This document shows positions 800-16,419 of a DNA stretch of 64,000 bases, in pieces. The position numbers and the translations under genes were made by a program. The notes below the pieces were generated by a model. The model did not search any database and was not told the origin of the DNA. It saw nothing but the letters and a program-made list of their open reading frames with translations. The first letter of the stretch is position 1, and each line of letters begins with the position of its first letter. This DNA comes from Candidatus Dadabacteria bacterium (GTDB taxonomy: Bacteria; Desulfobacterota_D; UBA1144; Nemesobacterales; Nemesobacteraceae). The stretch spans positions 504,732 to 568,731 of the forward strand of contig OX638332.1 of assembly GCA_951812735.1 (NCBI GenBank), given 5' to 3'.

Positions 800-1957
800 A
801 TGGACGACGGCAAAATCCGAATTTTGGTTGTCGATGATGAGATAGATTTAGAACAGCTTATGCTGCAGAGAATGCGGCGTGAAGTTCGCCGTGGCCGTTA
901 CGAATTCGAATTTGCACACAATGGTGTGGAAGCCCTCGAACGTCTACGCAAAGACGGCGGGTTTGATATTGTACTGTCTGATATCAACATGCCCGTTATG
1001 GACGGGTTGACATTGTTGGGAAAGATACCGGAGGTAAACCCTGATGTTCGTGCCGTAATGGTCTCCGCATACGGCGATATGGAAAACATACGGACTGCTA
1101 TGAATCGTGGGGCATTCGACTTCGTTACCAAGCCGATAGACTTCATTGACCTGAAGATTACAATCGAACGTACGATTGAAAACCTTACTCTCTGGCGTAA
1201 CGCACTGAGTGCACGCGACCAACTTGTAGCTCTCCAGAACGAGCTTGACGTGGCACGGAAGATGCAGCAGGACATTCTTCCAAAATCCTTTCCGGTTTCT
1301 CAAGCATTTGATCTGTACGCAAGCATGGTTCCGGCTCTTTCCGTAGGCGGTGACTTTTTCGATGTTTATGAATTTAATGATGGCCGGGTTGGCGTTGCAA
1401 TAGCTGATGTGTCGGGCAAAGGAGTGCCCGCAGCAATGTTCATGATGGCCAGTCGCACACTGCTGAAGGCTTGCGCAGCAATCTCCGATTCTCCAGCCGC
1501 TGTGGTGGAACAGGTAAATACGATGTTGTCGGATGAAAACGATGCCATGACATTCGTAACCCTGTTATATGGCATTTACGATCCTGAAACGAAAAAACTC
1601 GTGTACGCAAACGGCGGACATAATCCGCCAGTCATTGTCAAACCGGATCTGACAACTGAACTATTAGAGTCAACGGGCGGAGTCGCTCTGGGTGTGATGC
1701 AAAATTTCAAATATCAGGAAAATACAGTCGCCCTTGAGCCGGGCTCCACGATTGTGTTTTACACTGACGGAGTAGTGGAAGCCGAAAAAGAAAATAAGGA
1801 ATTATTCGAAATGGACAGGTTTTGCCAAATTCTCCAAGACGGCACTTTCAAAGATGCCGAGGAAGTTACGAATGTGGTATTCAGCAAGGTCAAAGAATTC
1901 ACTGGTGAAAATCCGCAATCTGACGATATAACGTGTCTTGTTCTGCGAACCACATAA
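800..1957 (+). CDS. Response regulator with PP2C-type (RsbU/SpoIIE) serine phosphatase domain
   Basis: Residues 7-125 form a receiver domain: acidic pair in VVDDE, phospho-acceptor Asp61 in DIVLSDINMP, MVSAYGD and the conserved Lys in FVTKPID. A helical linker (about 130-165) leads to a PP2C-like SpoIIE phosphatase domain (about 165-383) with VGGDFFDV, ADVSGKGVPAAMFM, YANGGHNPP, YTDGVVEA and the terminal SDDITCLV metal-site motif. Proteins of this layout dephosphorylate STAS anti-sigma antagonists when the receiver is phosphorylated, which releases a sigma factor or another target from its anti-factor. The stop codon overlaps the next ATG (TAATG), so it is translationally coupled to the RsbW-like ATPase. 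The histidine kinase at 3645 is the obvious phosphate donor and the STAS proteins at 5928-6657 the obvious substrates; both links are inferred from proximity. Confidence 0.93.
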   Translation: MDDGKIRILVVDDEIDLEQLMLQRMRREVRRGRYEFEFAHNGVEALERLRKDGGFDIVLSDINMPVMDGLTLLGKIPEVNPDVRAVMVSAYGDMENIRTAMNRGAFDFVTKPIDFIDLKITIERTIENLTLWRNALSARDQLVALQNELDVARKMQQDILPKSFPVSQAFDLYASMVPALSVGGDFFDVYEFNDGRVGVAIADVSGKGVPAAMFMMASRTLLKACAAISDSPAAVVEQVNTMLSDENDAMTFVTLLYGIYDPETKKLVYANGGHNPPVIVKPDLTTELLESTGGVALGVMQNFKYQENTVALEPGSTIVFYTDGVVEAEKENKELFEMDRFCQILQDGTFKDAEEVTNVVFSKVKEFTGENPQSDDITCLVLRTT

Positions 1958-2391
1958 TGGGCAAAGACAGTAGGATGCAAGTTTCACGTACGTTGATCGT
2001 TCCCAATCGGATGGAAGAAATCCACACGATCGCAGTAGCGCTGGAGGAATTTTGTGAACAGCAGAATTTCCCCGCTGAAGCATTGTTTCACACACAACTT
2101 TCCTTAGAGGAAATCTTCACTAACGTGGTCAGCTATGCGCATGATGATGATCAGGAACATGAAGTGGAAATTATATTTTCGAGAGAAGATGAAACAATAA
2201 CTGTTGAGATACTGGATGATGGACATCCCTTTAATCCGCTAGAAGAAGCGCCGGAGCTTAATGTAGAAAGTTCGCTTGAAGACCGCGGTATTGGTGGAGC
2301 AGGAATAAGGCTGGCAAAGCAACTGATGACGGAGCTACGCTATCAACGCAACAGTGCTCGTAATCATCTGACTATGATCAAAAAAATTTAG
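1957..2391 (+). CDS. RsbW-like anti-sigma/serine kinase (GHKL ATPase)
   Basis: A 144-residue single-domain GHKL ATPase. Seen are the N-box LSLEEIFTNVVSYA, the G1-box ILDDGHPFNP and the G2-box GIGGAGIRLAKQLM. The ATG at 1957 is preferred over an in-frame ATG at 1933 because it overlaps the upstream stop as TAATG. Small stand-alone domains of this kind are anti-sigma factors that also phosphorylate a Ser in STAS antagonists. It sits between the RsbU-like phosphatase and an exported binding protein, with a 4-bp gap to the latter, so all belong to one operon. The sigma factor it would bind is not in this window. Confidence 0.9.
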   Translation: MGKDSRMQVSRTLIVPNRMEEIHTIAVALEEFCEQQNFPAEALFHTQLSLEEIFTNVVSYAHDDDQEHEVEIIFSREDETITVEILDDGHPFNPLEEAPELNVESSLEDRGIGGAGIRLAKQLMTELRYQRNSARNHLTMIKKI

Positions 2392-2395
2392 AAAA

Positions 2396-3634
2396 ATGCG
2401 GGTGTTAAGCAGACTGTCTCTCAAAAAAGTGGTTGCCGCTTCAATAGTTGCGATACTGATAAGCGCAGCATCTGGCGAAGCCCAAGAACAAATACACGCT
2501 GTGCCGGGCGTATACAGTAATCGTATTGTATTTGGGCAATCCGCCGCCTTCAGTGGGCCGGCCAGCGAGCTTGGCAAAGGCATGCAGGCTGGCATTCTTT
2601 CCGCGTTTAAAGAGGTTAATGACCGGGGTGGCGTTAACGGACGTCGTCTGGAACTGCGATCAATGGATGACGCATACGAACCAGAAGCGGCAATTACAAA
2701 TACGCAGCGACTGATTGGTGAGGGCGTTTTCGCACTCATCGGCGCAGTTGGTACTCCTACCTCCAAAGCTGCGGTACCTGTTGCGGAGGAACACGGTGTA
2801 CCTTACATAGCGCCTATGACCGGTGCAGAGTTCCTGCGTGGCAATGCACGCCGGACAGTCATTAATCTTCGGGCTTCGTATTATCAAGAAACCGAGGAGA
2901 TGGTAGAACGACTGACAGCTGATCTCGGAATTAATCGCGTCGCCATTCTTTATCAGGATGATTCATTCGGTCGTGCTGGTTTGCAAGGGGTCCTTCTTGC
3001 TCTTGAGCGTCGCAAACTTTCTGCTATCGGAACAGGGATATTTCCTCGCAATACTGTCGCGATAAAGACGGCGCTTCTTGATTTACGTGCCACCGGACCG
3101 GAAGCTGTGATTATTATTGGTCCCTACAAGCCGACTGCGACATTTATTAAATGGGCGCGCCATATCGGTATGAATTCCATTTTTATGACACTTTCTTTCG
3201 TAGGCAGTAATGCCTTGGCAAACGAACTGGGTGATGAAGGGGCCGGAGTCCTAGTTACGCAGGTGGTTCCTTTTCCAACCGGAAACACAATTCCTGCTTC
3301 CGCTTCCTATCGTGCTGCGTTGAAGGCGTACGATCCGGCGGCAAAACCCGGATTTATATCATATGAAGGATATTTAGCAGGGCGTTTGGCTATTTATGTC
3401 GTAGATCATTGTGGCAAGCAGGTTAACCGCGGTTGTATTGATGCGGTACTGCGGACTGGCAACAACATTAATTTGGATGGCTTCACCTTGCGATATAGCA
3501 AAAATGATAATCAAGGTTCAGACAGAGTGTTCTTGACGATTATTGGTCCTGATGGCCAGTATACACCACTTACATCTCTAACCTCCACGACGATACTGAC
3601 CGATGCTTTGCATATGCAAAAGACATTGAATTGA
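2396..3634 (+). CDS. Exported ligand-binding protein, LivK/branched-chain amino acid type
   Basis: Has a signal peptide (residues 1-30, positively charged RLSLKK then a hydrophobic run ending SGEAQ) and a type-I periplasmic binding fold of the Peripla_BP_6 kind: FGQSAAFSGPASELGKG near residue 43, then FKEVNDRGGVNGR, both standard for LivJ/LivK-like proteins. Length 412 is normal. No permease or ATPase of a Liv transporter is nearby. It lies instead between an RsbW-like gene and a membrane histidine kinase, 10 bp before the kinase. The likely job is therefore to present a small ligand (amino acid, amide or similar) to the kinase sensor domain. The ligand cannot be told from sequence. Confidence 0.88.
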   Translation: MRVLSRLSLKKVVAASIVAILISAASGEAQEQIHAVPGVYSNRIVFGQSAAFSGPASELGKGMQAGILSAFKEVNDRGGVNGRRLELRSMDDAYEPEAAITNTQRLIGEGVFALIGAVGTPTSKAAVPVAEEHGVPYIAPMTGAEFLRGNARRTVINLRASYYQETEEMVERLTADLGINRVAILYQDDSFGRAGLQGVLLALERRKLSAIGTGIFPRNTVAIKTALLDLRATGPEAVIIIGPYKPTATFIKWARHIGMNSIFMTLSFVGSNALANELGDEGAGVLVTQVVPFPTGNTIPASASYRAALKAYDPAAKPGFISYEGYLAGRLAIYVVDHCGKQVNRGCIDAVLRTGNNINLDGFTLRYSKNDNQGSDRVFLTIIGPDGQYTPLTSLTSTTILTDALHMQKTLN

Positions 3635-3644
3635 GATAAACGGA

Positions 3645-5921
3645 ATGCTTTCAAAGCTCTGGAATCGAATTTCTACGCAAATTTCTACGCAACTCTATAT
3701 AAGTTTCGGAGGTGCTGTAGTACTCATCATCATTATCAGTTTGATTGCCCTTTTCTTCCTTAGCCACATTGGCAGGGTCCAGCAAGACATTAACCGAAAG
3801 AACATACCCGAGATGACATCGGCGTTTGCAATTGCCCAGCAGACAGCCACGCTCGTCGCCGCTGCTCCCCGACTCACCTCAAGTACACCTGAACAGTTCA
3901 GGACCGTAGCTGGGACGATCGGCCTGCAGGCGGATGCATTTAAAACACAGCTCTCAGTAATGATGGAAAATCAAGGAGAAAGCGAACAAGCGCGGCAGAT
4001 TCAATCTGACGGGATCGCCATAATCAAGAACATTGATCGAATCAAATTGCTTGTCAGGGAACGTTTCGATCTTCGCGAGAGCAGTCTCAATCTTAGAGAC
4101 GAGCTTCAGGGTATCCAAAGTGAAATAACACCGATTATGATTAACGAAATCGACGATCAGATGTTCTATATAATGACCGGTTATCGGTTTCTTGATGGGG
4201 TACAATCACCCGGTTCGGTTCATTTTTCCGAATCGGAATTCCAGATCTATCGTCGCTTGTTTGAACTCCGCGAAGCGGCTGCAGTCGCCGCACAGTTGCT
4301 TGGAACCACATTTGTAGTGACCGATGCGGCTATGCTTCAGCCATTGCGAGAACGATTTCAAGCCACGGCCGGTAGTATCAGCCGATCGCTTGATGCCCTT
4401 GAGAAACACGAACAGGGGGAAGACCATCCTCAGAATAGACCGGATAGCCGATCGCCTGATCCGCTTAAGAACAATTCCCTTCACGATCGACTGTCTTGGA
4501 TTTTCGAAGACCTGGTCTCATTCGGCAGAAGAGAAAACAACGGATTTGACCTGCGCAGTCGGGAGCTTGCGGTTAATGATAAATTGTCCGCCCTGCTTCT
4601 CGAGAATCAGACTTTAGGAATTGACATCGTAGCGCGAGTAGAAAGTGTTGTAAATGATTCAAGCTTGGCTGCAGGGGAGATGACGAGCAAAGCAGCCGCA
4701 GTAACCGCTACCAGTACGAGGCTACTGGTGGCTTTCAACATTGTTAGTATAAGCGGTGCAGTCTTGCTCGGGTGGCTACTTGTACAACGTCGTCTGATTC
4801 GGCGTCTGGAGCGGATATCGAATCAGATGCAAGAAATGGCTGATGGCAACCTAGAAGTAGCCGTCGACACCAAAGGTAATGATGAAATCGCGCAATTAGC
4901 CAATGCGCTTGAGGTGTTTCGAAATAACGCACTGGAAGTACAGCGTCTTAATCTTGTAGAAACGCTTGCTAACCAACTGCAAGAAAAGAATGAGGAACTA
5001 GCACATACTAATGAAGAATTGAAACGGGCGCAGGACCAGATCGTTATGCAAGAGAAACTTGCTGCGCTTGGTGAATTGACAGCGGGGGTCGCGCACGAAA
5101 TCAAAAATCCAATGAACTTTATCATGAACTTCTCAGAGGTTTCACAAGAGCTCCTGGAAGAACTGATTGAGGAGGTAGCCAAAATTGAGGCTAGTGGAGA
5201 CATGGAAGAGGAATACGATTCGGAGTTAGTCGAGGAAGTAGCCGAGGATTTGACAGGGAATTTGAAACGCATTCACGAGCACGGAACTCGTGCGAACCGA
5301 ATTATAACAGACATGCTCAGGATGGGTCGCGGCGGTGGGGAATGGCAACCAACTGACCTCAATGTATTGCTTAACCAGCATGCGTTGCTTGCGTTCCATA
5401 GTGCTCGCGCCACCGACCCTGAATTCCAGCTAGAAATTCAGGAAGACTATGCGCCAGATATAGGCGAGATCACTGTACAACCGGAAGACATCGGTCGGGT
5501 TTTCCTAAATCTGGTAACTAATGCCTGCTATGCTGCGGACGAAAAACGAAAAATGCTGGCTGCTGCGGACAATGAGTCGAAAAAGGATTATCAACCGACG
5601 CTTAAGTTGAGTACGCGGCTTGTTGATGACCGTATTGAGGTACATGTTCGTGACAATGGAACCGGTATTCCCGAATCTGCATTGGAGCGTATCTTCAATC
5701 CGTTCTATACAACGAAACCCACGGATCAAGGGACTGGTCTGGGGTTATCGCTGTCCAATGACATCATACGACAGCATGGTGGTGAGTTTCGCGTAGAAAC
5801 GGAGGAAGGCGAATATACAGATATGATTGTTGTTTTGCCGCTTGACCCTGCAGCTCATCAAGTAATTGATACTTCAGAAGAAGCGGTAGAAGGCGAGGAT
5901 TCAGCAACTGCTTCTTCGTAA
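3645..5921 (+). CDS. Membrane sensor histidine kinase with large extracytoplasmic domain and HAMP
   Basis: 758 residues. A first membrane span lies at about 16-40, a long helical periplasmic sensor at about 41-360, a second span at about 363-385, and a HAMP domain follows (IRRLERISNQMQEMADGN). A coiled coil (about 435-470) leads to a HisKA domain with His484 in AGVAHEIKNP, then an ATPase domain with Asn626 in LVTNACYAA, VRDNGTGIPES, FNPFYTTK and GTGLGLSLS. An acidic insertion (about 500-540) between H-box and N-box is longer than usual. There is no receiver domain of its own, so phosphate most likely goes to the receiver-PP2C protein at 800. It ends 6 bp before the convergent STAS gene. Confidence 0.93.
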   Translation: MLSKLWNRISTQISTQLYISFGGAVVLIIIISLIALFFLSHIGRVQQDINRKNIPEMTSAFAIAQQTATLVAAAPRLTSSTPEQFRTVAGTIGLQADAFKTQLSVMMENQGESEQARQIQSDGIAIIKNIDRIKLLVRERFDLRESSLNLRDELQGIQSEITPIMINEIDDQMFYIMTGYRFLDGVQSPGSVHFSESEFQIYRRLFELREAAAVAAQLLGTTFVVTDAAMLQPLRERFQATAGSISRSLDALEKHEQGEDHPQNRPDSRSPDPLKNNSLHDRLSWIFEDLVSFGRRENNGFDLRSRELAVNDKLSALLLENQTLGIDIVARVESVVNDSSLAAGEMTSKAAAVTATSTRLLVAFNIVSISGAVLLGWLLVQRRLIRRLERISNQMQEMADGNLEVAVDTKGNDEIAQLANALEVFRNNALEVQRLNLVETLANQLQEKNEELAHTNEELKRAQDQIVMQEKLAALGELTAGVAHEIKNPMNFIMNFSEVSQELLEELIEEVAKIEASGDMEEEYDSELVEEVAEDLTGNLKRIHEHGTRANRIITDMLRMGRGGGEWQPTDLNVLLNQHALLAFHSARATDPEFQLEIQEDYAPDIGEITVQPEDIGRVFLNLVTNACYAADEKRKMLAAADNESKKDYQPTLKLSTRLVDDRIEVHVRDNGTGIPESALERIFNPFYTTKPTDQGTGLGLSLSNDIIRQHGGEFRVETEEGEYTDMIVVLPLDPAAHQVIDTSEEAVEGEDSATASS

Positions 5922-5927
5922 CGCGGT

Positions 5928-6287
5928 TTAACCCGTTATTGCGGCTATAGCATCAGAACGAGATTTGAACATATCAATGATTTTGTCAAAAGCTGTGATC
6001 TCGAAGATTTCTTTTACGGGACCATGCAAGCAACACAGCACAAATCTCGTATTTCTACCTTTTAATCTTTTTGCAACAAGCAGAATTGATCGCAATCCCG
6101 CACTATTGATGTAGGTAAGATTTTCAAGATCCAGAACTACGGGGCTGTCAGAGTCGATAATTTCCTTGTACAGCTTGTCGTGGAATTCCCGCGCGTTCAA
6201 ACCATGAACTTGGCCAGTTACGCTTATTACCAAGGCCCCTTCGGCCTGGTTGGCCTGCAACTTAACTTGATTGTTTTGAATGACCAT
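5928..6287 (-). CDS. STAS-domain anti-sigma factor antagonist (copy 1)
   Basis: 119 residues forming one STAS domain. The regulatory Ser is Ser62 in YINSAGLRS, the position phosphorylated in SpoIIAA/RsbV proteins. In this family the unphosphorylated form binds the RsbW-type kinase and frees its partner. It is a close paralogue of the next gene upstream; the two overlap by 26 bp at 6262-6287, and the identity extends through the start MVIQNNQVKLQA. It converges on the histidine kinase gene with a 6-bp gap. It is the likely substrate pool for the phosphatase at 800 and the kinase at 1957. Confidence 0.9.
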   Translation of the reverse strand: MVIQNNQVKLQANQAEGALVISVTGQVHGLNAREFHDKLYKEIIDSDSPVVLDLENLTYINSAGLRSILLVAKRLKGRNTRFVLCCLHGPVKEIFEITAFDKIIDMFKSRSDAIAAITG

Positions 6288-6657
6288 TCTCTAGCGGTTT
6301 AATCGTTATCGCAGCTGTAGCGTCAGAGCGAGATTTGAACACATTAATGATTTTGTCAAAACCTGCAATCTCGAAGATTTCTTTTATGGAATCAGGCAAG
6401 GAACACAGCATGAATTTCGTATTTCTACCTTGTAATGTTTTTGCAATAAGCAAAATTGATCGCAATCCCGCACTGCTGATGTAGGACAGCTTTTCAAGAT
6501 CCAGAACTACGGGGTTGTCAGAGCCGCCAATTTCCTTGTCCAGGTTTTCGTGGAATTCCTGTGCGTTCAAACCATCAATTCGACCAGTTACGCTTATTAC
6601 CAAGGCCCCTTCGATTTGATCAGCCTGCAACTTAACTTGATTGTTTTGAATGACCAT
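6262..6657 (-). CDS. STAS-domain anti-sigma factor antagonist (copy 2)
   Basis: 131 residues, a tandem duplicate of the STAS gene just downstream; the first 119 residues align without gaps and the target Ser62 is kept in YISSAGLRS. It differs by a 12-residue tail ending NGHSKQSS, which comes from reading into the start region of copy 1. Two near-identical antagonists suggest either dosage or two slightly different binding partners (for example the RsbW-like protein encoded at 1957 and another one elsewhere). Transcription would start in the roughly 280-bp gap before the peroxiredoxin gene. Confidence 0.9.
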   Translation of the reverse strand: MVIQNNQVKLQADQIEGALVISVTGRIDGLNAQEFHENLDKEIGGSDNPVVLDLEKLSYISSAGLRSILLIAKTLQGRNTKFMLCSLPDSIKEIFEIAGFDKIINVFKSRSDATAAITIKPLENGHSKQSS

Positions 6658-8296: not shown

Positions 8297-8437
8297 ATGA
8301 ATTTAATCAAGATTTTCAAGCAGTTCCCAGACCAGAAAGCCTGCATAGAGCACCTTAAAACCATCCGCTTCGGCGATACGCCATATTGGCCGCATTGTGG
8401 AAGCATTCATAAAGAAGGAGTATTAAATCATGATTGA
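8297..8437 (+). pseudogene. IS1595-type transposase N-terminal remnant
   Basis: A 46-codon frame, MNLIKIFKQFPDQKACIEHL followed by KTIRFGDTPYWPHCGS, matches the N-terminal zinc-ribbon region of IS1595-family transposases (typical pattern F-P-D-x-x-A-C-x-x-x-L, then a C-P-x-C knuckle). The first Cys of the knuckle is Trp here, and the reading frame stops after 46 codons, so the catalytic part is gone. The remnant overlaps the first 8 bases of the sterol-reductase gene, and the AAGGAG inside it is correctly placed to be that gene's ribosome site. Confidence 0.7.
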
Positions 8438-9569
8438 ATTGCTTGGTATCAGCCACTTTTTCGAGCTTTCCCGGACGGAAGCGATTGCAGGGTTTTTCAC
8501 TCCACTGGTGATTTTCGCCGTGTTTTTCCTGGCGCAGCTCATATTGCCTGGAAAGTGGGTTCCGGGCTACGTCATCAATCCGCAGACCGGTGAACCCCGC
8601 AAGTATCGGCTAAACGGCATCCTGGTGTTTGCAGTTGCGGTGATCGTGTGGGCTTTCGAACTCACCGGGATGCCGCGTGACTGGTTCTATCGGTCCTCGA
8701 TCTATGCCGTGGCCGGTGGAACTGTTTTCACCACCATCTTTGCAATCATAGCGGTCTTCAGCCAGCCGCAAGGCAAGATCAAGAACCCGCTTCTGGCTTT
8801 GTGGGACGGGCGGGCGCAGGAGATGTCGTTCTTCAACGACCGTTTCGATGTTAAGATGTATTTCTATGTCGTCGGTGGGACGATGTTGGCGCTCAACGCC
8901 TTGTCCGGGGCCACGTACAACTACGAACTCTTTGGCGAAAACTTCAATCCAGGCGTTTTCCTGTATGCGGCGTTCTTCACATTCTACATACTGGATTACT
9001 TTGTCTTTGAGCGCGTCCAGCTATATACCTACGATCTGATCCATGAACGTCTCGGCTTCAAAATGTTCTGGGGTGGTCTCGTGGTCTACGGGTGGCTGTT
9101 CATCCTACCGTTGTGGGGCATGGCCGCTTACCCGTCTCCCGGATTCTCGTCGGCGTTGACCTATGTCTGGCTCATCGGAACAACTGCGCTATTCCTGTCC
9201 GGGTGGGTCATCTCGCGCGGCGCCAACTTGCAGAAATACTCTTTCAAACGATGGCCCGACCGCAAGTTTCTCGGGCTCATCGAGCCTGAGTACATCGAGG
9301 CCGGCGACCGCAAGATCCTGTGCAGCGGCCTGTGGGGTGTCGCTCGCCACTTCAACTACCTGGGCGAAGGCTTCCTTGGTCTTTCAATTGCCTTGGCATT
9401 CGGCTACTTCACTAATCCTTGGGCGTGGACTTACTTTGTCTTCGTCGTAACGTTTTTTACCTTTCGTCAACATTTTGACGATGCGTACTGTGCCGAGAAA
9501 TACGGCGCCGAAAAGTGGGCGGAGTATCAGGCACGGGTGAAATACCGGATTTTTCCTGGCATTTATTGA
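8430..9569 (+). CDS. ERG4/ERG24-family sterol reductase
   Basis: 379 residues, polytopic (about nine hydrophobic segments). The C-terminal signature of the Delta14/Delta24(28)/Delta7 sterol reductase family is complete: LLCSGLWG-like LCSGLWGVARHFNYLGE, then DDAYCAEKYGAEKWAEY and VKYRIFPGIY. An upstream family block is GRAQEMSFFNDRFDVKMYF. These enzymes reduce a sterol double bond with NADPH in the membrane. Which double bond is acted on cannot be decided by eye; ERG4-type side-chain reduction would follow naturally from the methyltransferase at 13779, while Delta14 or Delta7 reduction is equally possible. The ATG at 8430 is supported by AAGGAG 9 bp upstream. The gene is more GC-rich than the flanking debris and is enclosed by the 77-bp inverted repeats, which suggests transfer. 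Confidence 0.85.
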   Translation: MIELLGISHFFELSRTEAIAGFFTPLVIFAVFFLAQLILPGKWVPGYVINPQTGEPRKYRLNGILVFAVAVIVWAFELTGMPRDWFYRSSIYAVAGGTVFTTIFAIIAVFSQPQGKIKNPLLALWDGRAQEMSFFNDRFDVKMYFYVVGGTMLALNALSGATYNYELFGENFNPGVFLYAAFFTFYILDYFVFERVQLYTYDLIHERLGFKMFWGGLVVYGWLFILPLWGMAAYPSPGFSSALTYVWLIGTTALFLSGWVISRGANLQKYSFKRWPDRKFLGLIEPEYIEAGDRKILCSGLWGVARHFNYLGEGFLGLSIALAFGYFTNPWAWTYFVFVVTFFTFRQHFDDAYCAEKYGAEKWAEYQARVKYRIFPGIY

Positions 9570-9927: not shown

Positions 9928-12258
9928 ATGAACCTGGAATCCTTCTTTGCGATGATCATGGCCCGCCGCTGGCTGACCATTCTGCTCTCTTTGCTTGTTA
10001 TGCTGGTCCTTGCTGCGGGAGCCACGCGCTTGATTGTGGTGGATGTAGACTTTCGCAATCACTTTGGTGAATCCGACCCACACCTTATCGCGCTGGAACA
10101 GCTTGAAGAGACATATGCGCTGTCCGATGTTGCATTGGTTGCCGTGGCGCCACATAACGGCACCATTTTCACCCGGGAAACGCTTGTTGCCATTGAAGAG
10201 CTGACTGAGCAGCTTTGGCGCACCCCTTACGCCACCCGTGTCGACTCTATTTCAAACTATACGCATAGCGAGGGGTTCGAAGATGAACTGGTTGTTGAGC
10301 AGCTTATCGACGAAGCCAGTTCCCTGAGCGACACCGATATAGAACGAATCAGAGATATCGCGTTCGGCACTGAGGAAATTGCCGGGCGATTCTTTTCCCG
10401 TGACGGACGAGTTGCCGGTTTGGTTGTAAGTATTGTGCTTCCTGACGACAATCGGGAATTGACCAAGCGAGAGGTTACCGACTATTTGTATGAAACTATT
10501 GCCGACGCCCGGGATAAACATACATCCATCGACTACCACCTTTTAGGTGGACTTATCCTCAATCGTGTCATAGGTGACGCGCTTGACGATGAAACGGCCA
10601 TCCTTGGGCCCATTGCCCTTGGAACCATGCTGCTTGTCGCCTTGGTTCTGATACGTTCGATATGGGGGACACTTGCGATCGTGCTGATGATTGTTACCGT
10701 CATCCCATCTGCGCTGGGCTTTGCCGGGTGGACTGGCTTAAAGCTGTTTGGTGAAAGCGGTGCCGCACTGTTTGTACTGATGGCTGTGACCGTCGCTCAT
10801 TCCGTGCACATTATTGAGGCAATGGCCGGGGGCTTACGCCAGGACATGACGAGAACAGAGGCGGCAATCCATGCTGTGCAAGTGAACGTGTGGCCTGTTT
10901 TCCTCACCTCGTTCACAACTGCAATCGGATTTTTGAGCCTGAATTTCGTAGATATGCCGCCGTTTAAGGTTATGGGCAACATGGTGGCGTTCGGCTCCAT
11001 GTGCGCTTTCGCCTTTTCGGTGACTCTACTGCCCGCATTCCTGTCGATATTACCTATTCGTGCCCGGAAGGTGCGCGAAAGCAAACGGGATCCTTTCGAT
11101 CGCCTCAGCCGTTTTGTCATCTCCTATCGTACGATCCTTCTGTGCTTCTTTGGCATTCTGACTGTCTTTCTGGCTGCCGGCATCACCAAGATCGAACTTA
11201 AGGAGAACTGGCTTGAGGTTCTTGATGAGAGTTACGAGTTCCGGCGATCCGCGGATTTTCTGAGCGAGAATTTCCCTGGAGTGGAAACCTATGAGTACTC
11301 TCTGGATTCCGGCCGTGAAGGCGCCGTCACACACATAGAATACCTAAAACAGGTCGATGCGTTTGCGGATTGGTACCGGGAGCAACCGGAATTTGTCCAT
11401 ATCTTCTCAATTGCCGACATCATGAAGCGTCTGAACAAGAACCTGCATGGCGACAACCCGGATTACTACGTGCTTCCCGACGATCCTGAACTTGCCGCAC
11501 AGTATCTTTTGCTTTACGAATTTTCTCTTCCGGTAGGCCGCGATCTGAACAATCTGATCGACCATGATCGGAGGGCAACACGCGCAACGGTCTCAGTGAA
11601 AAGTATGACCAGTAAGGAGAAGATCGATCTCGACGACCGTGCACGTGCATGGTTGCGGCAAAATGCCCCCAGCATGGAAACCGGCGCTACAGGAATTTCG
11701 ATTGTGGGGTCTCATTCGATTCAGAGGAACATTGAAAATATGTTGCAGGGCACTTTTGTGGCGATGGCCATCGTCTCCCTGCTGCTGTTCGCCATATTCA
11801 GAAGTATACGCCTGGGACTGGTCAGTCTGATCCCCAACTTCCTTCCGGCCGCTATGGCCATGGGACTCTGGGGGTATTTGGTGGGAGAGGTAGGAGTTCC
11901 AGCGGCGGTAGTCACCGCTATAGCATTCGGCATCATCGTGGATGACACGATCCATTTCATGACAAAATATACGGATAGCAGAAAAGCAGGGAAACTGCCT
12001 TCGGAGTCCGTTCAAATAGCTTTTCGCTCTGTGGGAAGGGCATTATTTACGACTACCGTAGTGTTTGGGCTGGGCTTCATGGTGTTCGGAGCATCCGGGG
12101 TGGTGGGAAACCAAGTGCTTGGTCTTTTGGTAGGAATAACGGTAATTATTGCTCTACTGGCAGATTTTTTCTTCCTTCCACCACTTCTGATGCTGCTTGA
12201 CGAGACCAAGGAAACCAGCGAGCAGATTAGGGAACGATTGAGAGGCTCCACCTCATAG
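9928..12258 (+). CDS. RND-superfamily lipid/hydrophobe exporter (MMPL type)
   Basis: 776 residues in the duplicated RND layout: one span at about 12-34, a periplasmic loop (40-210), a five-span bundle (about 215-385), a second loop (about 420-590) and a second bundle (about 600-765). The proton-relay acidic pair is Asp672-Asp673 in IIVDDTIHFM; the first bundle has the weaker AVTVAHSVHII. It belongs with the MMPL/HpnN-like branch that moves lipids and hopanoids, not with tripartite drug pumps; no membrane-fusion or TolC gene is adjacent. RND members are known to carry sterols in some bacteria. Placed between a sterol reductase and a sterol methyltransferase, sterol transport to the outer membrane is the favoured role, by inference. 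Confidence 0.85.
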   Translation: MNLESFFAMIMARRWLTILLSLLVMLVLAAGATRLIVVDVDFRNHFGESDPHLIALEQLEETYALSDVALVAVAPHNGTIFTRETLVAIEELTEQLWRTPYATRVDSISNYTHSEGFEDELVVEQLIDEASSLSDTDIERIRDIAFGTEEIAGRFFSRDGRVAGLVVSIVLPDDNRELTKREVTDYLYETIADARDKHTSIDYHLLGGLILNRVIGDALDDETAILGPIALGTMLLVALVLIRSIWGTLAIVLMIVTVIPSALGFAGWTGLKLFGESGAALFVLMAVTVAHSVHIIEAMAGGLRQDMTRTEAAIHAVQVNVWPVFLTSFTTAIGFLSLNFVDMPPFKVMGNMVAFGSMCAFAFSVTLLPAFLSILPIRARKVRESKRDPFDRLSRFVISYRTILLCFFGILTVFLAAGITKIELKENWLEVLDESYEFRRSADFLSENFPGVETYEYSLDSGREGAVTHIEYLKQVDAFADWYREQPEFVHIFSIADIMKRLNKNLHGDNPDYYVLPDDPELAAQYLLLYEFSLPVGRDLNNLIDHDRRATRATVSVKSMTSKEKIDLDDRARAWLRQNAPSMETGATGISIVGSHSIQRNIENMLQGTFVAMAIVSLLLFAIFRSIRLGLVSLIPNFLPAAMAMGLWGYLVGEVGVPAAVVTAIAFGIIVDDTIHFMTKYTDSRKAGKLPSESVQIAFRSVGRALFTTTVVFGLGFMVFGASGVVGNQVLGLLVGITVIIALLADFFFLPPLLMLLDETKETSEQIRERLRGSTS

Positions 12259-12334: not shown

Positions 12335-13378
12335 CTACGGATTATAATACTGACCATCCGGATAGAACTGCCTGCAGTAGCGCCGATACTTCCCGATATC
12401 GCCGTCAACACTGCAAAGCCTCGGAAGTGACCGATGTTTCAGATTGCTCCAGATAACGACATCCTGCATGACGTCATGCTCCTGGGAGGCAATGAGGACC
12501 TTGTTCATGAGGCGGGTCCTGAGTCCCAGGGGAAAGATCCGCAGCCCGTGGCCCGGTCCCTTCAGATTACGAAGTTGCCGGACTTGGCTCACCAATGTCA
12601 TTTCAATAAACTTGCCATCAATCGGTGTTGCAAGCACCCACAGGCGGGTGTCCATGTTGACCGAATGCTCGTGAACCTCGACAATTGAATAGCCAAGCCC
12701 GTGTATACTGGCGACCGCAGAAACGTCGTACTCGAAAAGCTTGATGCCGGCAACTGTGAGGTTGCGTTTGAAGTTGAAGGAGTTCCTGAGCAAGGTGCCG
12801 TCAATTGTTATCGACCCGACAATATTCACACTGTTGTAGTGGTGCACATAGTTAAGGTGCGCAACATCCACGGAGTTCTCGGTAGTTTCCTGGGGATGTC
12901 CCGGGAAACGGATGTGCCGGAATTCCATCCCGCTCCAGTCGGTATCCGTTGTGGGAAGTTCGGGCAGGTGCCATTGAGGTTCTCGACCGCCGCTGCCCCA
13001 CCAACCAAAGATAAGACCCTCTATTTCCCATGTCTCGAATACCTTCAGCTTAGCGGTTTTTGGCGGAGGAGCAAAAGGTGTCGCCACGCATTGACCGCTT
13101 ACATCAAACTCGAAACCGTGAAAAGGACATACAAGGCAACCGTTGCGCACGCGCCCCCCTACCTCAGGACCAAGATCGGCTCCTAGATGCGGACAGACCG
13201 CCTCGGCAACACAAACTTCCCCTTCCCCGTTGCACCAGACAACAATCTGTTCTCCAAGCCAGGTTCTCTTTAGGAGTCCTTTTTTTTTAATCATCTTGCG
13301 GCTGGCAACGAAATACCAGCCTTCCGGAAATGGGTAAAGCAAGGCTTCATCCTTGCGCATATTTGAGTTTGGATTCAT
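12335..13378 (-). CDS. Rieske non-haem iron oxygenase, Neverland/DAF-36 sterol type
   Basis: 347 residues. The Rieske [2Fe-2S] site is Cys62-x-His64 and Cys84-x2-His87 (AVCPHLGADLG and CLVCPFHGFEF). The mononuclear iron site is Asp171, His174, His179 in ENSVDVAHLNYVHH. Overall order and the E-N-x-x-D-x-x-H-x4-H spacing resemble the cholesterol 7-desaturase (Neverland/DAF-36) and KshA-like branch that acts on sterols and steroids. Such enzymes need an electron-donating reductase, which is not next door. Possible reactions are C-7 desaturation, nuclear hydroxylation, or C-4 methyl oxidation as in bacterial sterol demethylases; sequence alone does not choose. Divergent from the sterol methyltransferase, with a strong promoter at 13449-13477. 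Confidence 0.85.
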   Translation of the reverse strand: MNPNSNMRKDEALLYPFPEGWYFVASRKMIKKKGLLKRTWLGEQIVVWCNGEGEVCVAEAVCPHLGADLGPEVGGRVRNGCLVCPFHGFEFDVSGQCVATPFAPPPKTAKLKVFETWEIEGLIFGWWGSGGREPQWHLPELPTTDTDWSGMEFRHIRFPGHPQETTENSVDVAHLNYVHHYNSVNIVGSITIDGTLLRNSFNFKRNLTVAGIKLFEYDVSAVASIHGLGYSIVEVHEHSVNMDTRLWVLATPIDGKFIEMTLVSQVRQLRNLKGPGHGLRIFPLGLRTRLMNKVLIASQEHDVMQDVVIWSNLKHRSLPRLCSVDGDIGKYRRYCRQFYPDGQYYNP

Positions 13379-13778
13379 TTGCTGTTACTCCGCTTATCCA
13401 GTTATCCAGCGTTAAGTACCAGAAATGCATTTGCATTAGCTTCAGGGAATTATATATCTAAATAGAAAAAGTGTAAACCACTGCTCTTTCCCATCGTTTT
13501 GCTTGCCTTTTGTTTCTAGATCAATGCACAGCCAGTCTGTTCTCTTAACGTAAGCCCATAACTTGTCATTACGAAATATTTTGACCGCAGGCAAAATGCC
13601 GTCCCTCCAGCCGGGGTGATTCAGAAATTACTTGTATTTCTCATTAGTATCCTCTAGTATTGGTACTGACTTTTGCAAAATAATTCATTGCAGTAAGCAT
13701 CTTCTCGCAGGTTCGGGACTGTAGAAATGCCGTTACAGGTGGATTCCAGAAGCTCAAACGCAAAAGTCAAACCACTTA
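13379..13778. other. Divergent control region between Rieske and SMT genes
   Basis: A 400-bp gap without a credible gene. It contains the minus-strand promoter described separately. No equally clear plus-strand promoter is seen for the methyltransferase. A frame starting at 13727 runs into the methyltransferase in the wrong phase and is not coding. Confidence 0.5.
13449..13477 (-). promoter_or_regulatory. Sigma70-type promoter for the Rieske gene
   Basis: On the minus strand TTTACA (13472-13477) and TATAAT (13449-13454) are separated by 17 bp. They lie about 70 bp upstream of the Rieske ATG and point toward it. This is the best-formed promoter in the sterol region. Confidence 0.6.
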
Positions 13779-14816
13779 ATGAAACTCCGCAAATTATCAA
13801 ACGGACTGAAGGCAGCGTACAGTGGGTCGAACATCGCCCGCAGGGTGCAAGACTTCAATGGATGGATAGACAGAGCATCCGCGGAGAATGTCGGTGCGGC
13901 AAGCTACGACCACACCCAGACCGTCAAGGAATACTACGACCTTTGCGGCGAGTTCATGGTGTTCGGCTGGGGCGAATCCCTTCACTTCGCGCCGCTGTCG
14001 CCCCGCGAGAGCGTGGAGGACTCCAAGATTCGCCATCAGCGATTGATGATCGACAAACTGGAGCTGCAACAGGGCATGACGGTGGTCGATATCGGTTGCG
14101 GGATCGGCGGCCCGATGCGCCGTGTAGTCCGCGAGACCGGAGTCAGGGTCATCGGGGTCAACATCAACAAAATCCAGTTGGGAAAGGCAAAAAGGTTGAA
14201 CGCCGAAGCGGGGCTCGATCACATGGTCGACTACCTCGAGTGCAGCTTCATGGACATGAGCGCCGTCGCGGACGACACTTTCGACCGGGGCTACGCGTTC
14301 GAATCGACATGCCATGCGCCAAAAAAGGTGGACGCATTTGCCGAGATCTACCGCGTGCTGAAACCCGGAGCCCTCTTCTGGGGTCAGGAAATGTGTGTTA
14401 CGGACAAATTCGATCCCGACGACAATCAGCACCAAGCCATAAAGCAGGAGCTGATGCTCGGCATCGCGCTCAAGGATATCGCAACGATGGGCGAGGTAAA
14501 TGAGGCGCTCGAGACCGTGGGATTCCAAGTTATCGAGGGGGTGGACGAGGCCGTCGAGGAGAACGGTCCTACCACGCCGTGGTATCAACCCATGGTGAGT
14601 CGGCATGGAACGCTGGGCAACCCTCTGTACAGGACTCGACTGGGTCAGAAGATGTTCAACGGGGCATCCAGGCTGGCCGAGATACTGGGGATATTCCCGA
14701 AAGGCTCCACGGAAGTCGCAAGGCTGATGAATCGGACCGCTGACGCCTATGTCGCAGGTGGCAGGACCGGAATCTTCACACCGCTATACTGTTTCCTGGC
14801 GCGCAAACCCCTCTAG
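13779..14816 (+). CDS. Sterol C-24 methyltransferase (ERG6/SMT family)
   Basis: 345 residues with SMT-specific blocks in order: YYDLCGEFMVFGWGESLHFA (the Y-E-Y-G-W-G-x-S-F-H-F sterol-binding motif), a SAM site with Asp104 in VVDIGCGIGGPMRR, GVNINKIQ, YAFESTCHAP, EIYRVLKPG, TDKFDPDD and the C-terminal AYVAGGRTGIFTPLYCFLAR. The last block and the first are not found in general SAM methyltransferases, so the family call is firm. SMTs add a methyl group from SAM to C-24 of a sterol side chain (Delta24 sterols such as cycloartenol, zymosterol or desmosterol). Bacterial members are rare and mostly known from uncultured lineages. The ATG at 13779 lacks a Shine-Dalgarno, and no alternative in-frame start lies just upstream. 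Confidence 0.93.
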   Translation: MKLRKLSNGLKAAYSGSNIARRVQDFNGWIDRASAENVGAASYDHTQTVKEYYDLCGEFMVFGWGESLHFAPLSPRESVEDSKIRHQRLMIDKLELQQGMTVVDIGCGIGGPMRRVVRETGVRVIGVNINKIQLGKAKRLNAEAGLDHMVDYLECSFMDMSAVADDTFDRGYAFESTCHAPKKVDAFAEIYRVLKPGALFWGQEMCVTDKFDPDDNQHQAIKQELMLGIALKDIATMGEVNEALETVGFQVIEGVDEAVEENGPTTPWYQPMVSRHGTLGNPLYRTRLGQKMFNGASRLAEILGIFPKGSTEVARLMNRTADAYVAGGRTGIFTPLYCFLARKPL

Positions 14817-14947: not shown

Positions 14948-16396
14948 TTAATAAGTTGCGCGTCTTGCAATTTCTTTAAACATCTGCCTGAAAATAATCC
15001 AGTGGGTGGGGTAAAGACCATACCAATAGATCAGGCCACCTAGGCCCAGGGGTCGGAAAACTGCTGTCTGCGTTATTCGACTGCCCTTTTCAGCGGGCTC
15101 GACTTCAAACTGAAGCCACGCCTGACCAGGCAACCTCATCTCTGCTCTCAGGCTCAGCAGCCGATTCTCTTCATAAGCCTCAACACGCCAGAAATCCAGA
15201 GGATCACCCGGGCGCAAGTCGGTCGGATGCCGCCTGCCCCTACGCATGCCTACTCCGCCCAGAAGCAGATCAACCAAGCCGCGCAGATACCAGATCCAAG
15301 TGGCAAAATACCAGCCTTGGTCTCCGCCAATGCACCGTATGGGCGCGAAGGCTCGCGCGGGGTCCACGTTGACGACGGTCCGCTGGCAGTCGATAAGCCT
15401 CGAACCGAAACGCCCTCCTCCCCAAGACGGCCGGTTACCACTTGAAGACACGGCGTCGCTCCAGCGGGTCCGGGCCACTTCCATATCCTCCCGCTTAAGA
15501 GCCTGGGCTACTGCTTGGCGTACTCCCAAGGGATGTACCGGAAAATGTTTCAGGGCCGCTTTATCACGGACAATGGTCTCGTTGCGTAAGCCGTCCACGA
15601 GTTTTCTGCCCACCCTAGCATAAAGAGGAGTCACAAGCCCCAGCCAGAGACTCGAGAGATTGGGACTCAGGACAGGCACCGGAATCATAAGGCGCCGCAC
15701 GCCGATCTGGCGGGCATATTCATTCATCAGTTCGCCGTAGGTAACCTGGTCGGGACCGGCGATTTCGAAAACCGCGCTGTCCTGCAGTTCCAGATCCAGA
15801 CCGCAAATAAGATAGGCTATTACGTCTTCGATGGCGATGGGCTGGGTTAATGTTCTCACCCAGCTCGGGGTAACCATCAGCGGCAGCCTGTCAACCAGGC
15901 TTCGCAGCAACTCAAAAGAAAGCGATCCTGAGCCGATTATGATTGAGGCACGAAATTCCAAGGTAAGGGGACCTTCTGAAGCCAGAATATCCCCTACTTC
16001 CCTGCGGCTTGCCAAGTGAGAGGAAAGTTCACCGTCTCCGAACAATCCTCCCAGATAAATAATTCGACGCACTCCATGTTGGCGTGCAACTCGGGCGAAA
16101 TTGCGGGACCCGATACGGTCCTGTTCCTCGAAATTGTCCCCGGAACCCATGGAATGAACCATGTAATAAGCCGTGTCCACCCCTTCAAGAGCGATCTCGA
16201 GAGAATCAGGGTCAAGCACATCGCCAGCGACAATCCGGGTATCGGGAGAAAAACGACCAGCGAGATATCCGGGTTTGCGGGCAAGACAGCGCACCCGTTC
16301 GCCCTTTTCCTCCAAAGCCGGGACCAGGCGCCCACCGACGTAACCGCTTGCTCCCGTCACCAGTACAATTCGGTCTTTTTTCTTATCCTCAGACAT
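14948..16396 (-). CDS. SDR-family NAD(P)-binding protein with DUF2867 (YbjT-like)
   Basis: 482 residues from the ATG at 16396 (a TTG 15 bp upstream is less likely). The N-terminal half is an atypical extended SDR: LVTGASGYVGGRL nucleotide motif at about 12-24, a NmrA/YbjT-like SMGSGDNF region and IIYLGGLFGD. The C-terminal part (about 330-480) is a DUF2867/START-like domain (GDPLDFWRVEAYEENRLLSL). The family is poorly characterised; members are quinone- or lipid-associated in several genomes. It converges on the sterol methyltransferase with a 130-bp gap. A reductase role in sterol modification is attractive, because bacterial C-4 demethylation pairs a Rieske enzyme with an NAD(P) reductase, but this is inference only. 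Confidence 0.8.
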   Translation of the reverse strand: MSEDKKKDRIVLVTGASGYVGGRLVPALEEKGERVRCLARKPGYLAGRFSPDTRIVAGDVLDPDSLEIALEGVDTAYYMVHSMGSGDNFEEQDRIGSRNFARVARQHGVRRIIYLGGLFGDGELSSHLASRREVGDILASEGPLTLEFRASIIIGSGSLSFELLRSLVDRLPLMVTPSWVRTLTQPIAIEDVIAYLICGLDLELQDSAVFEIAGPDQVTYGELMNEYARQIGVRRLMIPVPVLSPNLSSLWLGLVTPLYARVGRKLVDGLRNETIVRDKAALKHFPVHPLGVRQAVAQALKREDMEVARTRWSDAVSSSGNRPSWGGGRFGSRLIDCQRTVVNVDPARAFAPIRCIGGDQGWYFATWIWYLRGLVDLLLGGVGMRRGRRHPTDLRPGDPLDFWRVEAYEENRLLSLRAEMRLPGQAWLQFEVEPAEKGSRITQTAVFRPLGLGGLIYWYGLYPTHWIIFRQMFKEIARRATY

Positions 16397-16419
16397 TAAG
16401 AACGAACCCAAGGTGTTGT

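Follow-up and report, generated by a model that had tools for sequence, protein, structure and literature searches.

A Rieske non-heme iron oxygenase gene was found in a Dadabacteria genome (a single contig of 1.59 Mb, 91% complete), and, judging from its sequence, its product is probably a terminal oxygenase that oxidises the sterol nucleus and belongs to a mobile island with which sponge-type symbionts would tailor sterols. The gene lies in the 64-kb window (the whole stretch of DNA that was analysed, 64,000 nucleotides, G000:C1:504732-568731), where it is divergent from a gene for a sterol 24-C-methyltransferase (SMT). The island spans approximately 25-30 kb (G000:C1 ~494 kb to 520 kb), and its left part falls just outside the window. 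Besides the Rieske gene it holds two SMTs, a GPP34-P450 fusion, an LkcE-like flavoprotein, an ERG4/24-type reductase and MMPL/RND transporters (Table 1); the Rieske enzyme and the GPP34-P450 are its two candidate oxidases. Bacterial SMTs are already known; the present result suggests a complete set of tailoring genes in bacteria of which most are unable to synthesise sterols. No description of a Rieske/GPP34-P450/flavoprotein island was found in the open-licence literature. Such an island suggests that host sterols pass through symbionts, at a time of live dispute over which organisms produce the unusual sponge sterols, among them the fossil markers for early animals.

Table 1. Features of the Rieske locus and the adjoining island (window positions unless a contig is given)
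Feature	Position	Strand	Remarks
ERG4/ERG24-type sterol reductase	8430..9569	+	part of the island
MMPL/RND (HAE3) transporter	9928..12258	+	sterol-sensing-domain match is weak; also adjoins the Rieske gene in L003-L008
Rieske non-heme iron oxygenase, putative sterol-tailoring family	12335..13378	-	347 aa; assigned from domains, homologues, alignment, tree and fold
Best-conserved intergenic element	13411..13432	-	just downstream of the -10 box; holds palindrome AAATGCATTT (13423-13432)
Predicted sigma-70 type promoter of the Rieske gene, TTTACA-17-TATAAT	13477-13449	-	11/12 consensus bases; conserved in Dadabacteria relatives
Sterol 24-C-methyltransferase (SMT), divergent neighbour	13779..14816	+	Sterol_MT_C domain
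NAD-binding SDR + DUF2867 protein	14948..16411	-	adjoins the locus at full length in Dadabacteria only
MMPL transporter with sterol-sensing match	G000:C1:493990-496359		left of the window
SMT2	G000:C1:499449-500450		left of the window; 42% identical to the SMT at 13779..14816
GPP34-P450 fusion	G000:C1:500726-502753 (= L083:14727-16754)		left of the window
LkcE-like flavoprotein	G000:C1:502877-504271		left of the window

The Rieske protein and its enzyme class

The Rieske ORF is intact, with an ATG start and a GGAG-type ribosome binding site. Scanning 84,980 species genomes for homologues yielded 190 relatives, and the analysis used the best 80 of them. Conservation extends along the entire protein in these 80 other genomes (52-97% identity), and its closest relatives among them are from Dadabacteria MAGs (78-97% protein identity). 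The Rieske ligands C62, H64, C84 and H87, the iron-site pattern E167-N168-x2-D171-x2-H174-x4-H179, and D306 are each invariant in 81 of 81 copies, which bears out the preliminary description in its claim that both metal sites are intact. The iron site of Rieske oxygenases (ROs) is of the 2-His-1-carboxylate type, the roles of its residues being general family knowledge, and this site and the CxH...CxxH pair were both recognised in the protein. An alignment with the solved chains of KshA (the oxygenase of 3-ketosteroid 9alpha-hydroxylase) pairs D306 with the Asp of the KshA sequence '(E/L)QDVEIW', and from this alignment the predicted facial triad is H174/H179/D306. An iron site of Asp171, His174 and His179 had been proposed; both histidines are retained as ligands, but the third is D306, and D171 is the bridging or relay Asp between the two metal centres.

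Pfam searches of the Rieske protein returned KshA_C (PF19298) at 3.8e-26 and Rieske at 7.1e-18, with no match to the aromatic ring-hydroxylating alpha-subunit domain or the PaO C-terminal domain. Its AlphaFold model (pLDDT 84, pTM 0.85) found the KshA crystal structures as best fold matches, with TM of 0.75-0.80 at 22-23% identity; SxtT/GxtA, dicamba and other ROs ranked below them. The resemblance to enzymes of the sterol nucleus noted in the preliminary description is thus upheld, and a grouping with Rieske enzymes of aromatic or chlorophyll substrates, named there as evidence against it, did not appear in either the domains or the fold ranking. An aromatic or chlorophyll RO was rejected on the same grounds, since neither Pfam domain is present and the KshA folds rank above those of aromatic ROs. 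A maximum-likelihood tree placed the window Rieske family in its own clade (100/100), apart from KshA, very far from the C-4 demethylase oxygenase SdmA, and sister to a clade of Streptomyces plasmid ROs, while KshA and an RHA1 homologue share another clade. The phylogeny with KshA and SdmA that had been proposed as a check therefore agrees with a steroid-type enzyme, yet puts it within neither of the two families. By domain, tree and modelled fold, then, the predicted enzyme is of the steroid type and neither of the aromatic nor of the chlorophyll type, and its sequence indicates that it almost certainly acts on sterols.

The region between the Rieske and SMT genes

The divergent Rieske and SMT genes are separated by exactly 400 bp (13379-13778), as described previously, and the near-consensus promoter reported for the Rieske gene is present in this region. 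A match of at least 11/12 consensus bases arises in approximately 1% of 2000 dinucleotide shuffles of the same 400 bp. In six Dadabacteria relatives (L003-L008) the promoter blocks retain 76-80% identity to the window where the flanking DNA has drifted, most of the remaining region being at ~50-65% identity, and the predicted promoter is better supported by this conservation than by the shuffle statistics. Highest conservation was seen just beyond the -10 box, where 96% of the bases in a 20-bp stretch (13430-13411) are retained in the six relatives, a stretch that overlaps the palindrome AAATGCATTT; the element listed in Table 1 is a candidate operator or 5'UTR/leader element. A repeat search of the 400-bp region found no longer inverted repeat.

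On the SMT side of the region, identity in the same six relatives falls to ~40-60% with no conserved block, so that the comparison of related genomes showed conservation on the Rieske side only. Furthermore, the SMT of L006 is located elsewhere, and there is no SMT within the fetched flank of L008. For these reasons, the common regulation of both genes that had been suggested from their shared region is not supported as a general rule, and the case for it is weak.

The island, its carriers and their sterol genes

In the fetched flanks of 81 Rieske loci the neighbours included the GPP34-P450 (56 loci), AcrB (33), the flavoprotein (33) and SMT (30), as well as HlyD (25), OEP (18) and MMPL with a sterol-sensing match (17). 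No dedicated Rieske reductase was seen in the island, and the membership of the NAD-binding SDR + DUF2867 protein is uncertain. The GPP34-P450, for which no description was found in the open-licence literature, joins a GPP34 (Golgi phosphoprotein 3-like) domain to a cytochrome P450 with an intact heme motif, PYGLGTHxCLG. Its I-helix reads A-S-V/M-Y-L-G-D, without the usual acid-alcohol pair, which suggests unusual P450 chemistry, and the fusion could perhaps provide lipid-head tethering.

Several other features of these loci were observed. A third Sterol_MT_C match in the own genome (G000:C1:497630-497788, minus strand) lies in a 119-aa open frame that is a probable remnant of another SMT. Compared with L004, L005 and L007, the SMT of the window is 79-85% identical, against 91-94% for the adjacent Rieske protein and 90-92% for the transporter; this faster divergence of the SMT (13779-14816) may reflect different selection or replacement. 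In one Dadabacterium a second, different Rieske oxygenase (L006:8357-9343, minus strand; 34% identical, with motifs that include ENTVDFTHFSTVH) adjoins the first. Positions 800-6657 of the window encode a SpoIIE-phosphatase response regulator, a HATPase_c_2 protein, a periplasmic binding protein and a histidine-kinase-like ORF, along with tandem near-duplicate ORFs (5928-6287 and 6262-6657) that look like anti-sigma-factor antagonists, and are possibly a partner-switching signalling set adjoining the island.

By title, the carriers among the best 80 of the 190 relatives are MAGs of Gemmatimonadota, Chloroflexota, Acidobacteriota, Latescibacterota and Dadabacteria, and further of Rhodothermales, Acidimicrobiia, Gammaproteobacteria, Opitutales and Rhodospirillaceae. 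These 80 other MAGs are of symbiont type and belong to about ten phyla; several of their bin-name series resemble those of published sponge or coral MAG studies (e.g. PMC8163846), and on the basis of names and literature a sponge or coral origin is likely. Among 58 Dadabacteria genomes, the Rieske gene occurs in 11 of the 14 of the window's own genus and in 0/44 elsewhere, and SMT in 13 of the 14 and again 0/44, with an SMT present in every Rieske carrier. The Fisher p of this association is ~3e-10 across Dadabacteria, where it is not independent of genus, and 0.21 within the genus. In places the Rieske gene tree mixes phyla: Latescibacterota fall among Gemmatimonadota, Rhodospirillaceae beside Dadabacteria, and one Acidimicrobiia inside Chloroflexota. 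The restriction to one genus of Dadabacteria and the mixing of phyla in the gene tree point to horizontal transfer among symbionts, and from the sequences the island looks like a mobile one for tailoring acquired sterols.

SMT was detected in 49 of 51 Rieske carrier genomes and in 0/14 control genomes; as the 51 were chosen partly for an SMT in the locus, a fairer figure is 19/21, the proportion of carriers without a full-length SMT in the fetched locus that have one elsewhere in the genome. The co-occurrence in 49/51 genomes supports a functional partnership of the Rieske enzyme and SMT. An ERG4/24-type reductase was present in 35/51 carriers, and three Acidimicrobiia carriers (G037, G041 and G044; loci L065, L072 and L077) each have a set of three such reductases, of which two lie in tandem.

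Squalene epoxidase, by comparison, was found in only 6/51 carriers. The same six have an epoxidase-cyclase (SE-OSC-like) frame of 1,146-1,293 codons and SdmA, and in L095, one of the six, direct reading showed the OSC motif DCTAE. At this locus (G027:C76, from the gammaproteobacterial MAG of L046) a squalene epoxidase-oxidosqualene cyclase fusion has a squalene-synthase-like ORF as its neighbour, and the tailoring Rieske gene is present in the same genome. The strong cyclase matches of other carriers were of SHC type wherever a motif could be read (DDTAV or DDTAE; L084 and L087 gave none), and SHC-type matches were excluded from the sterol-synthesis count. A family-by-family search of the own genome found neither squalene epoxidase nor oxidosqualene cyclase, nor indeed any cyclase, so that the pair needed for de novo synthesis is lacking in this genome and in 45/51 carriers. 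Since these 45 absences stand beside 49 presences of SMT, missing data are not the explanation, and most carriers appear to modify sterols without making them. For the own genome it follows that substrate sterols would come from the host, the diet or neighbouring symbionts.

Candidate reactions, alternatives and known systems

The proposed pathway would begin with the uptake of sterols from one of these sources. The ring of an acquired C27 sterol would then be oxidised by the Rieske enzyme, to which a generic reductase with its gene elsewhere would pass electrons, and further oxidation would be carried out by the P450 and the flavoprotein. The SMT is expected to methylate the sterol at C-24 and the ERG4/24-type enzyme to reduce it, after which the exporters would move the product out; the order of these steps is itself conjectural.

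Three readings that depart from this pathway were weighed. The first of the enzymes to consider is KshA, and a divergent KshA of sterol degradation in sponge bacteria, possibly of the sponge-only KshA cluster IV (PMC5790920), would account for the KshA_C domain and the fold. The two proteins also have the same layout of Rieske and iron sites (PDB 4qdc/4qdf/2zyl), and the cluster in question is reported from sponge MAGs only, in Bacteroidetes and Actinobacteria, groups that carry the window Rieske family; the cluster may in fact be this family. Nevertheless, we consider a catabolic KshA very unlikely. The window family forms a separate clade, has E-N in the iron site where KshA and SdmA have D-N, and has x19 in the Rieske loop as against x16 in KshA. 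KshA belongs to steroid catabolism, whereas no KstD or Hsa ring-degradation genes were found in the own genome when its FAD_binding_2 proteins and HsaC-type dioxygenase were searched for: the only FAD_binding_2 proteins of full length are two, SdhA and NadB, and an HsaC-type dioxygenase is absent at E<=1e-15 from this genome and from 43/51 carriers, with none over the cut-off. The partner genes, SMT and the reductase, are biosynthetic. We also reject, as the least probable reading of all, an SdmA-like C-4 demethylase oxygenase, one of the two activities offered in the preliminary description. SdmA is likewise a bacterial Rieske enzyme of sterol metabolism and was the best NCBIfam match by name, but its model scored 33.7 bits (residues 21-179) against a cut-off of 600, and the branch to SdmA is long. 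That sdmA and SMT share clusters in other bacteria (PMC10070321) speaks for such a role, and also means that a C-4 demethylase would not have been the new SMT partner it was taken for. True SdmA relatives (~400 bits) occur as separate genes near the cyclase in the six carriers with sterol-synthesis genes, together with the window family, and this coexistence argues against the assignment. In addition, the 45/51 carriers without epoxidase, including the own genome, have no self-made lanosterol to demethylate, and no full-length SdmB was found, the SDR at 14948..16411 matching SdmB over its NAD-binding part only. The island might also act on a lipid other than a sterol (a hopanoid, another triterpenoid or a host terpenoid), with the SMT recruited to it; SHC-type cyclases do occur in some carriers, and LkcE-like flavoproteins and P450s serve other natural-product pathways too. 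We regard this as unlikely, since carriers of the Dadabacteria type are without any cyclase, the SMT has the sterol C-terminal domain and is present in 49/51 carriers, and SMTs of sponge bacteria methylate sterols in vitro (PMC10070321).

If the substrate is a sterol, the best single candidate for the ring reaction is C-7(8) desaturation of the Neverland/DAF-36 type, which is attractive on mechanistic grounds and which we put forward tentatively by analogy. The published iron-site pattern of Neverland, E-X3-D-X2-H-X4-H (PMC7609953), agrees with the invariant E167...H179 of the window family. This agreement is not diagnostic, because in the tree alignment the E-X3-D pattern is also seen in Streptomyces and other ROs. 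No Neverland sequences were found in the viral contigs scanned or in the text of the papers searched. Nearly as likely, and equally a minority view, is an unspecified ring hydroxylation, in which the Rieske enzyme and the P450 would make a polar sterol that is exported to serve in signalling, in defence or in the membrane. The closest solved folds are those of steroid ring hydroxylases, KshA, and the island has a P450 and AcrB/HlyD/OEP exporters; on the other hand, no particular ring position is indicated, and the iron site has Glu where KshA has Asp. C-7 desaturation is favoured because the parts of the island match the roles known from Capsaspora owczarzaki, which converts serum cholesterol to ergosterol by means of a Rieske C7-desaturase, a C22-desaturase P450, SMT and a delta24(28)-reductase, with side-chain delta24 desaturation as the missing step (PMC4967820). 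By analogy, the Rieske protein, P450, SMT, ERG4/24-type reductase and flavoprotein would supply one candidate for each of these roles. A broader proposal, that about ten phyla share the island horizontally, convert host or dietary sterols into their own products without synthesis and so account for part of the unusual sterol chemistry of sponges, with the Rieske proteins as the first family of C-7 sterol desaturases from bacteria, is a doubtful extension.

Among known systems, the horizontally spread sterol clusters (CSGs) of Ircinia symbionts (ERG24-CYP51-LSS with SMT nearby; PMC9531527) and the msb cluster of Melophlus (PMC7074536) resemble the island in being shared among symbiont phyla and in including an SMT. 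They encode de novo synthesis (OSC, CYP51, ERG24), whereas the window-type island occurs without epoxidase and OSC in 45/51 carriers and adds the GPP34-P450, the flavoprotein and the exporters. A Chlamydiae MAG likewise has an SMT without other sterol genes, in a bacterium unlikely to synthesise sterols (PMC10070321), but the SMT of the window belongs to a multi-gene island that is conserved across many phyla. The cholesterol C-7 desaturases Neverland, DAF-36 and DES7 share their published iron-site pattern with the window family, which differs in its Rieske loop (x19, as against x18 from the residue numbers of C. elegans DAF-36; PMC7609953). In Capsaspora an enzyme of this type works with a C-22 P450 and SMT on acquired cholesterol (PMC4967820); the Rieske protein described here is bacterial.
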